Assembly: GCF_014640335.1 (NCBI RefSeq)
Contig: NZ_BMGT01000001.1
Coordinates: forward strand, 682,001 to 746,000
DNA length: 64,000 nt
Reading direction: 5' to 3'
Source: Edaphobacter dinghuensis
Lineage (GTDB): Bacteria; Acidobacteriota; Terriglobia; Terriglobales; Acidobacteriaceae
Below the pieces are notes generated by a model. It was given only the letters and a program-made list of their open reading frames with translations. It was not told the origin of the DNA and searched no databases. The position numbers were made by a program, and so were the translations under genes. Within the stretch, counting starts at the first letter, position 1. Each line of letters starts with the position of its first letter. Below, one piece after another: positions 13,441 to 16,091 of this stretch.

Positions 13441-14304
13441 CTACTTCGCCGCCGCCTCGATCTCCGCCCACTCCGCATCGCTCAGCTTCACGCTCGCCGC
13501 AGCGACATTCTCCTCCAGATGCTTCACCGAAGTCGTCCCCGGAATCGGCAGCATCACCTTCGACCGGTGCAGCAGCCACGCCAGCGACAACTGCGAGACC
13601 GTCGCTCCATGCTTCTTCGCCGCCTCATCCAGCTTGCCGCCCGGCTGTGCCAGCTTGCCCGCCGCCACCGGAAACCACGGAATAAACGCCAAACCATTCT
13701 TCTCGCAATACTCCACCACGTCCTCATGCTGACGGTCGCCGAGGTTGTACTGGTTCTGCACGCTCACAATCTTTACAATCTTCCGCGCCTGGTCGATCTC
13801 ATGCGGCTTCACCTCGCTCAGCCCCACGTGGCGAATCTTGCCCTCCTGCTGCAGCTTCACCGCCTCGCCCAGCGACTCCTCCAGCGGTGTCTTCGGATCA
13901 ATCCGATGTAGTTGCCACAGATCGATCCGCTCCACCTTCAGATAGCGCAGGCTCAGCTCCACCTCTTGCCGCAGATAGCTCGCACGCCCCAGCGGCTCCC
14001 ACTTGTTCGGCCCCGGCCGCGTCAGCCCGGCCTTGGTCGCCACCACAACGCCCTTCGCATAGGGAGCCAGCGCGTCCCCAATCAGCCGCTCACTCACCGC
14101 CGGGCCATACGAGTCCGCCGTGTCGAAGAAGTTCACGCCCAGCTCGACCGCCCGCCGCAGCACCTTCTTCGCACCCTCGACGTCCTTTGGCTCGCCCCAG
14201 ACACCGTCGCCGGTAATCCGCATCGCGCCATAACCCAAACGATGGACGCTCAAATCCCCGCCAATCGCAAACGTCCCGCTCGCCGCCGCATTTACATTCG
14301 CCAT
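13441..14304 (-). CDS. Aldo/keto reductase
   Basis: NADPH-dependent (beta/alpha)8-barrel oxidoreductase of 287 residues. The catalytic tetrad is visible: Asp and Tyr in [10 protein letters not shown], Lys in VVVATKAGL and His in LWQLHRID. The C-terminal part has [18 protein letters not shown], the usual cofactor-phosphate binding region. The substrate is unknown; this subgroup reduces aldehydes and ketones. The start is set at MANVNAA (14304); the frame reaches 14340 but the extra 12 residues are not family-like. It reads away from the low-GC DpnI pair. Confidence 0.88.
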
Positions 14305-14666
14305 GCAAAATTGGATGCCTTGCTCGATTAAATGGTGCATTCAGATTCCAGAGCCCGTTTATGCGGTTTCACTCAAATCAAGTTTCACCGAGATTATCTC
14401 GTCCGGTGCGAGTTAGCCCGCAAAGTGACAGGCTGTCAACTAAAGATAATGGAATCAATTACACCTGCTATAAAGATCGCATTGTCTCGACTGAAGTAAC
14501 GAAAGTACCGCACCTTCTCTCAACGGAAGCGACGGAAGATTATGGCAAACGACAGGCTGTCGCCGATACATATCGTAGATGGATCTGGGCGATTTACAAA
14601 ACGCAGTGAAGGGCACCAAATAGCTTATCTGTCGCCCAAAACATATGATCAAAAAGCCGGGAATGA
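14305..14666. other. Low-GC intergenic stretch, no gene
   Basis: About 360 bases, visibly more AT-rich than the dnaA region. Short open frames here have no ribosome binding sites or family features. It marks the left border of the low-GC DpnI island. Confidence 0.4.
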
Positions 14667-14924
14667 TTATCTTTCGAGTCTATTTTGTGTAAGTTCCACC
14701 ACGTCCGGTACCCACAACGGTGACGGTAATCTCCGACTGGCGAAATCAAGATCATCTTGATCAATATTTCGGCTTAAGTCGACAGATTTGTATGGAGTCA
14801 TTTCGATATTGCATATCGGACACCGATCATCGCACATGGAGGACCATTCATCCTCCCAAATGTGGTGGCATCGCACGCAGCGATAGCAATTCAAAAACCA
14901 TTGAACTTTCAACTCGAATTTCAT
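14667..14924 (-). CDS. Small zinc-ribbon protein coupled to DpnI homologue
   Basis: An 85-residue protein with six cysteines in its first half: Cys13, 16, 19 and Cys31, 35, 38. The CxxC pairs (CVRC and CPIC) look like a zinc ribbon of rubredoxin type. The C-terminal half is acidic then basic and not recognised. Its ATG overlaps the TGA of the DpnI-like gene (ATGA), so translation is probably coupled. It does not resemble pneumococcal DpnD. A role as a partner, regulator or nucleic-acid-binding accessory of the nuclease is inference from the overlap. Confidence 0.7.
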   Translation of the reverse strand: MKFELKVQWFLNCYRCVRCHHIWEDEWSSMCDDRCPICNIEMTPYKSVDLSRNIDQDDLDFASRRLPSPLWVPDVVELTQNRLER

Positions 14925-15688
14925 AGGAGAGCGTCTCCTGTTGCTGTGGCTCCATAAACCAAGCGGTAGATTCCGCGGCCTTCAAAGAGGATAAGCCCTG
15001 CATCTCGAAGAACCTGCAACTGTTGTCGAATCTTCGGACGAATATTCTTATTCTCGGGGTACAAGATCGAAAGTTCTCTCTCGAATCTATAAGCGTCCTC
15101 AAGAGTAAATTTGGATGTTGGAAGCCGATGTAAACATTTCAGTAGAGCTCGCGACCAATTCCGACCACGGATGGGTTGAATTCGCAATCTTTCAGTCGCA
15201 GCAAATATGGCTCGGCTGCTTTCTTTTGAAACAGGCACACCATTTTCCATTAAGGGAATTCGCCCTTCAGGAGGTATGCCACTGAGCAGGATGTTACAGC
15301 CGATCCAACCTGCTCTCCTGGCGGTAGCCGATAAGGGTTTTCTTTGGCTGATTACTTCGCGGGTGATCAACGAACGATGGATCGCAACAAGATCGGTAAT
15401 CATCGACGATTCTGAGTACCGCAAAAGCAAAAAACTCGACACACTGCCACTTTCAATGCGTCGGATCATAGAAATATATGCGCCGTCGACAATCTTTATT
15501 CCAAAGGGTCTCAGCGAACTCTTAAGTTCATAAGGATGGCCACAATCCCGACATTCAAAATCCCTAGCTTGAGTGTTTGCTGGTGTCGGTACAAGACGTT
15601 CGCTCTCACAAGCTAGACAATAGCCGTTGCTTGCCACCCATGATTCGCTCATAACGCGAGCCAATTGTGATTTGCTCCTGTAAGGCAT
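14921..15688 (-). CDS. dpnI-like: DpnI-like methyl-dependent restriction endonuclease
   Basis: A 255-residue homologue of DpnI (254 residues), the type IIM enzyme that cuts Gm6ATC. The zinc finger is kept (Cys24, Cys27, Cys46, Cys49). The PD-(D/E)xK residues are Asp43, Glu54 and Lys56 in ELK. The strongly conserved block QRKPLSATARRAGWIGCN follows. The C-terminal winged helix, which reads the methylated base in DpnI, is present (FTLEDAYRFERELS; IRPKIRQQLQVLRDAGL; GRGIYR). The first ATG giving a DpnI-like N-terminus is at 15688; the frame opens at 15763. The region is AT-richer than its neighbours, which suggests transfer. No Dam methylase lies in the window, consistent with a host that lacks GATC methylation. 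Confidence 0.93.
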   Translation of the reverse strand: MPYRSKSQLARVMSESWVASNGYCLACESERLVPTPANTQARDFECRDCGHPYELKSSLRPFGIKIVDGAYISMIRRIESGSVSSFLLLRYSESSMITDLVAIHRSLITREVISQRKPLSATARRAGWIGCNILLSGIPPEGRIPLMENGVPVSKESSRAIFAATERLRIQPIRGRNWSRALLKCLHRLPTSKFTLEDAYRFERELSILYPENKNIRPKIRQQLQVLRDAGLILFEGRGIYRLVYGATATGDALL

Positions 15689-15839
15689 AAACGAATAGTA
15701 GATTGGACTCCTATGCTGAGACTCTCTTCCTCCAGCCACCCCCCTGTGAAAAACCCGTCCCATCAGGTATACTCAGAAATTGCTGCATTAGCCTAAAAGT
15801 TTTGAGCAGGAACCGATTCCTGCCGCAGGAGTTTTTGTC

Positions 15840-15995
15840 ATGCCGAAGCGTACCTTTCAACCCAACCGCCGCCACCGCGCCAAGACCCACGGCTTCCTCA
15901 CCCGCATGAAGACCAAGGCCGGTGCTGCCGTTCTCAGCCGCCGCCGCGCCAAGGGCCGTCACAAGATCGCCGTCAGCGCCGGTTACCGCGACTAG
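15840..15995 (+). CDS. rpmH: 50S ribosomal protein L34
   Basis: A 51-residue basic protein, [20 protein letters not shown] to the end VSAGYRD, with the family core [21 protein letters not shown]. It is part of the large ribosomal subunit. The ATG is at 15840, with GCAGGAG about 9 bases upstream. In most bacteria rpmH is followed at once by rnpA; here about 800 bases with a small gene and repeats intervene. Confidence 0.98.
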
Positions 15996-16091
15996 TCGTC
16001 TTCCCGCATCACCCCAAAAGGCAAGTCACCTCAATGGCTTGCCGGAACACCGGGTAAGAATTTTCTAGTCCTGTACCACCCCCAAAAAATA

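Follow-up and report, generated by a model that had tools for sequence, protein, structure and literature searches.

A DpnI-type nuclease and its recurrent zinc-ribbon companion in a low-GC block between dnaA and rpmH of Edaphobacter dinghuensis

The window analysed here is a 64,000-nucleotide stretch of the Edaphobacter dinghuensis genome (contig NZ_BMGT01000001.1, positions 682,001 to 746,000). In the interval from dnaA to rpmH, which also contains an aldo-keto reductase gene on the side towards dnaA, it carries two overlapping genes, which encode a putative methyl-directed endonuclease and a small protein with the cysteine pattern of a zinc ribbon. The original prediction, made from the letters of the window, had placed this pair in an AT-richer island, and both the position and the dip in composition are confirmed, with a GC content of about 0.45–0.48 over 14250–15750 against about 0.60 in the surroundings. 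On re-reading the sequence, we also found the coordinates of the two genes and their ATGA overlap to be correct. The features of the locus are as follows.

14319–15741, no strand: acquired block of low GC (46%), outside which blastn homology to locus L134 of genome G210 resumes exactly
14667–14924, minus strand: small acidic zinc-ribbon companion of 85 residues, with homologues beside DpnI in seven other loci, a relic in L089 and no curated family
14775–14897, minus strand: zinc-ribbon core, residues 10–50, a predicted beta fold with C16, C19, C35 and C38 (AlphaFold2; alignment of 16 relatives)
14921–14924, minus strand: ATGA overlap of the DpnI stop with the zinc-gene start (read from the sequence)
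14921–15688, minus strand: DpnI-type methyl-directed endonuclease of 255 residues (Pfam DpnI and DpnI_C, PADLOC mREase_II, PDB 4esj)
14963–15163, minus strand: C-terminal winged helix (DpnI_C; Pfam PF17726, residues 176–242), with K219 and R221 equivalent to DpnI K229 and R231 by residue mapping
15305–15343, minus strand: predicted base and methyl recognition loop RKPLSATARRAGW, with R116, L119, R125 and W128 equivalent to DpnI R126, L129, R135 and W138 (residue mapping; roles from PMC4117772)
15521–15562, minus strand: predicted PD-(D/E)XK active site D43..E54-L-K56, equivalent to DpnI D53, E64 and K66, and the second CxxC pair of the zinc site (ungapped DpnI alignment; residue mapping)

The nuclease coding sequence starts at the ATG at 15688. 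A longer open reading frame could begin at 15763; because the sequence from 15742 onward is the conserved leader of rpmH, as judged by homology to a relative, 15688 is the sensible start. Profile searches and alignment to the PDB entries confirmed the DpnI-type assignment that had been proposed. The protein matches Pfam PF06044 (DpnI) with E = 5.4e-50 and 170 bits and PF17726 (DpnI_C) with E = 3.7e-25 and 88 bits, exceeding the curated cut-offs of 26.7 and 23 bits, respectively, and matches PADLOC mREase_II at 9.5e-67. Against PDB 4esj/4kyw (DpnI; 5.9e-56), 240 residues align with zero gaps, both CxxC pairs included. The window nuclease is an ordinary new member of the DpnI family, having in common with R.DpnI of Streptococcus pneumoniae (PDB 4esj, 4kyw; PF06044 plus PF17726) its two-domain architecture and zinc site. 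DpnI cuts Gm6ATC and, in pneumococcus, is encoded with DpnD. The two systems differ in host, which is acidobacterial here, and in companion, a putative zinc ribbon in the window as opposed to the pneumococcal DpnD.

Residues E64 and K66 belong to the active site of DpnI by its PD-(D/E)XK motif. Residue mapping found 12 of 12 checked positions of DpnI conserved in the window nuclease, identical throughout the catalytic, base-contacting, methyl-binding and winged-helix groups. The active-site residues D53, E64 and K66 are present, of which D53 served as the active-site control in the DpnI structure paper (PMC4117772), as are S17, N48, D78 and R126, which together with R135 contact the guanines and the outer pairs of the site (PMC4117772). 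The methyl cleft of DpnI, formed by L129, R135 and W138, and its winged-helix residues K229 and R231 (PMC4117772) are likewise retained, and the alignment to DpnI adds the CxxC...CxxC zinc site. Over 88 DpnI homologues, the checked positions are mostly invariant or nearly so, with lower values for S17 (63/88) and E64 (78/88). The catalytic residues, zinc site and winged helix, all called conserved on first reading, are thus borne out by the mapping and by the ungapped alignment. As the functional residues are identical to those of DpnI, cleavage of Gm6ATC by the window nuclease is strongly predicted.

The block that holds the pair was acquired by insertion. When the window was compared by blastn with its most syntenic relative (L134 of G210), segments 13844–14318 and 15742–16000 aligned and the interval between them did not. 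This relative has kept both the aldo-keto reductase gene (81%) and rpmH, with no nuclease and zinc pair between them. Homology breaks at 14318 and returns at 15742, and 14319–15741 is thus an insertion in an exchangeable site. In place of DpnI, the relative has an unrelated outer-membrane-like gene between the aldo-keto reductase gene and rpmH (L134:500–1400), and the presence of a different gene in the same gap suggests that the dnaA–rpmH interval behaves as an exchange site in the genus. In 29 relatives from the genus we examined the surroundings of rpmH, to a distance of at most about 1.5 kb per side; its neighbour was dnaA in 24, an aldo-keto reductase gene in one and neither in four, and within this range none had DpnI beside rpmH. 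Across 396 Acidobacteriota genomes only 11 gave a DpnI match, two of them marginal. The earlier view that the pair was acquired is supported by its low GC, by the comparison with G210 and by this rarity.

For the companion, AlphaFold2 gave block means of 89–97 over residues 11–50 and a pLDDT of at least 90 for 35 residues, with a weakly predicted tail. Residues Y14, C16, W23, D33, C35, C38 and P44 are invariant over 16 members of the family, viral ones included, and the cysteine pattern and predicted fold together suggest that the companion binds zinc. The isoelectric point lies between 4.1 and 5.4 in 15 of these 16 proteins; that of the window DpnI is 9.9. The companion has no curated family match in Pfam, NCBIfam or PADLOC, and searches of the zinc family against PHROG and Pfam gave sub-threshold zinc-ribbon matches only. 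A sequence search of the PDB returned no relative (best E about 0.08, Rpo12), and comparison of the predicted fold with the PDB returned no significant match (best E 0.4), so that the structure yields no function. The partner had been said to look different from DpnD, and it indeed has no match to PF14207 (DpnD) at E ≤ 5, a search in which the companion at L084, our positive control, matches at 5.7e-12. Nor does it match Lar (PF14354) or any Ard family in Pfam at E ≤ 5.

To place the companion in context, it was searched against all open reading frames of 89 DpnI-bearing loci. A zinc homologue adjoins DpnI in eight of them, the window included, always on the strand of DpnI, and lies downstream in L001, L017, L023, L024 and L058 and upstream in L008, L014 and L016. 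The eight genomes span two phyla, and in each the gene is single-copy. Elsewhere the family is scarce: of 396 Acidobacteriota genomes only G157 has a credible copy away from DpnI, and 288 other genomes from the class of G402 gave no homologue. Matches in G335 and G046 proved to be zinc domains of IS91-type transposases and were rejected as family members. With so small a background, adjacency in 8 of 89 DpnI loci lies far beyond chance. When the presence of the zinc gene is mapped onto a tree of 88 DpnI proteins, five changes are required, at least four of them forced by well-supported branches. The association has therefore arisen repeatedly, or been lost and re-established, with the zinc gene on either side of DpnI. 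The zinc gene is nevertheless absent from most DpnI loci, among them L002, which has the closest intact DpnI for which downstream sequence is available. The association is real, it recurs, and it is undescribed in the libraries and literature searched. The partner is not unlinked in relatives: seven other genomes have it next to DpnI, and a relic of the pair persists in an eighth.

This relic (L089) comes from a genome of the same family and another genus, G273. The first part of its DpnI is the closest to that of the window, at 65.6% over 90 residues. The DpnI fragment is followed by a deletion and then by SIGLSRQLDDQDFSYAARRLPSPLWPPHVIEL, which corresponds to the tail of the window zinc protein, SVDLSRNIDQDDLDFASRRLPSPLWVPDVVEL. 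The relic does not lie at rpmH; its neighbours, recognised by eye from their translations, we take to be dnaB and a glyoxalase gene. Since remnants of both genes are present, DpnI and the zinc gene have been inherited together, and the chromosomal site of the pair differs between G273 and the window.

Away from DpnI, too, the zinc-ribbon core is present. We found it in 22 viral contigs (L107–L128), in Pseudomonas phage KPP25 (ORF038) and on three conjugative plasmids, of Caballeronia, Burkholderia and Methylibium, and the copy in G157 sits in a mobile region, adjoining a CHC2-like zinc-finger protein and without DpnI. The viral loci contain no DpnI, nor do the stretches analysed from phage KPP25 and two of the plasmids, and a DpnI search of the viral contigs gave no relative. 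The neighbours of the viral zinc genes are too mixed for any named pathway. The window protein shares with this unnamed family the core N-x-Y-x-C ... W-x-D-x-WSC-x-C-[DN]-D-x-C-P-x-C ... P-x-x-S. It differs in having an extra C-terminal tail, RRLPSPLW-x-P-x-V-x-EL, seen elsewhere only in the L089 relic, and in its place beside DpnI, which the viral and plasmid copies do not have. It thus belongs to a wider mobile family from which it was recruited, and the basic role of that family, given its presence on phages and plasmids without DpnI, cannot be specific to DpnI. Where the companion had been put forward as a possible accessory protein, the recurrent linkage favours the idea; a partner private to DpnI it is not, since its family travels on phages and plasmids without DpnI and is absent from most DpnI loci.

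Other small genes also occur beside DpnI. A DpnD-like gene (PF14207) flanks DpnI in 10 of 89 loci, eight times downstream and twice upstream. DpnD/PcfM-like proteins resemble the companion in their small size and in the position of their genes, which adjoin DpnI on its downstream side as a rule and on its upstream side at times, but they share no sequence similarity with it and are not zinc ribbons. We rejected mutual exclusion of the two genes, as the zero loci observed with both, against about 0.9 expected, are statistically meaningless. A third small companion family, which matches nothing in Pfam, lies downstream of DpnI in L087 (1295–1495), L028 and L052; in L087 the two genes overlap by ATGA. 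Further small proteins with two CxxC pairs, unrelated to the zinc family, adjoin DpnI in L083, L086, L020 and L034. With the zinc family removed, small CxxC proteins of other families amount to 5/89 beside DpnI and 12/698 among control open reading frames (p = 0.03), a weak lead towards their enrichment there. Lar, too, is a small zinc protein, carried by mobile elements and connected with restriction. The window protein has no significant similarity to Lar (PF14354); only the unrelated two-CxxC protein of L083 matches it, below threshold (E = 0.0016).

A nuclease for Gm6ATC raises the matter of host methylation. No Dam enzyme above the family cut-off was found in the host genome (G000), no Dam-family match in the seven other zinc-bearing genomes and no methylase gene in the acquired block. 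The host genome has one orphan beta-class methylase. Near position 459278 of contig C1 (L092:476–2316), it also encodes a D12-class methylase next to a restriction enzyme of the NotI type (Pfam NotI, 5e-54); the targets of both methylases are unreadable from sequence. GATC occurs 340 times in the window against 407 expected, a deficit too mild to argue from. In two other genomes, G307 and G009, DpnI coexists with full Dam-family methylases encoded elsewhere, so that the absence of the Dam family from DpnI-bearing genomes is not a strict rule, and a conflict between DpnI and Dam-type methylation is possible there. In the same genomes, truncated Dam-family N-terminal fragments of about 44–71 residues (G307:C19:46529–46738 and G009:C27:77549–77689) adjoin DpnI (L084 and L087), an arrangement that looks like the replacement of a dam gene by DpnI.

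We read the block, with moderate confidence, as a mobile two-gene restriction cassette, in which a DpnI-type nuclease for Gm6ATC is paired with a zinc accessory that would bind and modulate it. The endonuclease (Type IIM) would cut Gm6ATC in incoming DNA of Dam-positive phages, plasmids or bacteria, and host DNA would be spared because the host presumably has no Dam, which would make the pair a defence against Dam-methylated DNA, as first suggested. The zinc protein would have been recruited from the phage- and plasmid-borne family into the genomic slot that DpnD holds in other DpnI loci. There, the acidic protein may bind the basic DpnI, most likely as a dedicated accessory, and may restrain its activity or level. 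That DpnD-like and other small genes occupy the slot beside DpnI favours an accessory over an unconnected gene. For the function of the zinc protein, we place a DpnI modulator first, a passenger second and a captured anti-restriction protein third. That the gene is a passenger, a mobile-element gene of the hotspots through which DpnI is exchanged, carried along without acting on the nuclease, seems unlikely. Such a gene could well be found, as this family is, on viral contigs, on conjugative plasmids and in a mobile region without DpnI, and be missing from most DpnI loci; it would not, however, be expected under random co-transfer to land next to DpnI every time. Yet in eight genomes of two phyla the sole genomic copy is the immediate neighbour of DpnI and shares its strand, in both orders and in several lineages, and at the window locus stop and start overlap.

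A still less probable reading makes the zinc protein an anti-restriction (restriction-alleviation) protein of phages or plasmids, captured as an inhibitor of or immunity protein against DpnI and shielding host or incoming self DNA. It draws on the small, acidic character of a family borne by phages and conjugative plasmids, on the ArdC anti-restriction gene that adjoins the viral relative L107 and on the Lar match of the unrelated L083 protein. The ArdC neighbour is weak evidence, however, being found in one of 22 viral loci, the Lar match is below the cut-off and comes from a different protein, and the window protein itself matches neither Lar nor any Ard family. We consider it very unlikely that the window nuclease has ceased to serve in defence, whether through loss of activity or through a change in specificity: the broken pair in G273 indicates that the cassette is dispensable, but the window frame is intact over all 255 residues and every functional residue checked is conserved. 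Beyond the two-gene cassette that we prefer, we can speculate, at low probability, that the phage and plasmid family normally blunts or redirects host DNA defence and was captured on several occasions, now upstream and now downstream of DpnI, as a protein dedicated to controlling this nuclease in the DpnD slot. Were this capture to hold true, DpnI systems would be two-component, with interchangeable companions.

DpnI is regarded as a restriction enzyme that consists of a single protein and acts alone, and the DpnI literature searched gives no role for DpnD. With a second small protein, unrelated to DpnD, recurring beside DpnI across phyla, the nuclease may commonly have a companion that assists it or keeps it in check. 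Such a role would also give the first functional handle on a phage and plasmid zinc-ribbon family that is nameless in the libraries searched. The novelty is modest: the nuclease family is known, and the recurring zinc-ribbon companion is new.

Just downstream of the zinc gene, the near-palindrome GACAGGCTGTC occurs at 14427–14437 and again at 14551–14561, 124 bp apart, with no further exact copy in the window. The two copies, like a GACAG-N4-CTGTC hairpin downstream of the relic pair (L089, 2021–2034), are possibly terminators or traces of the end of an element.
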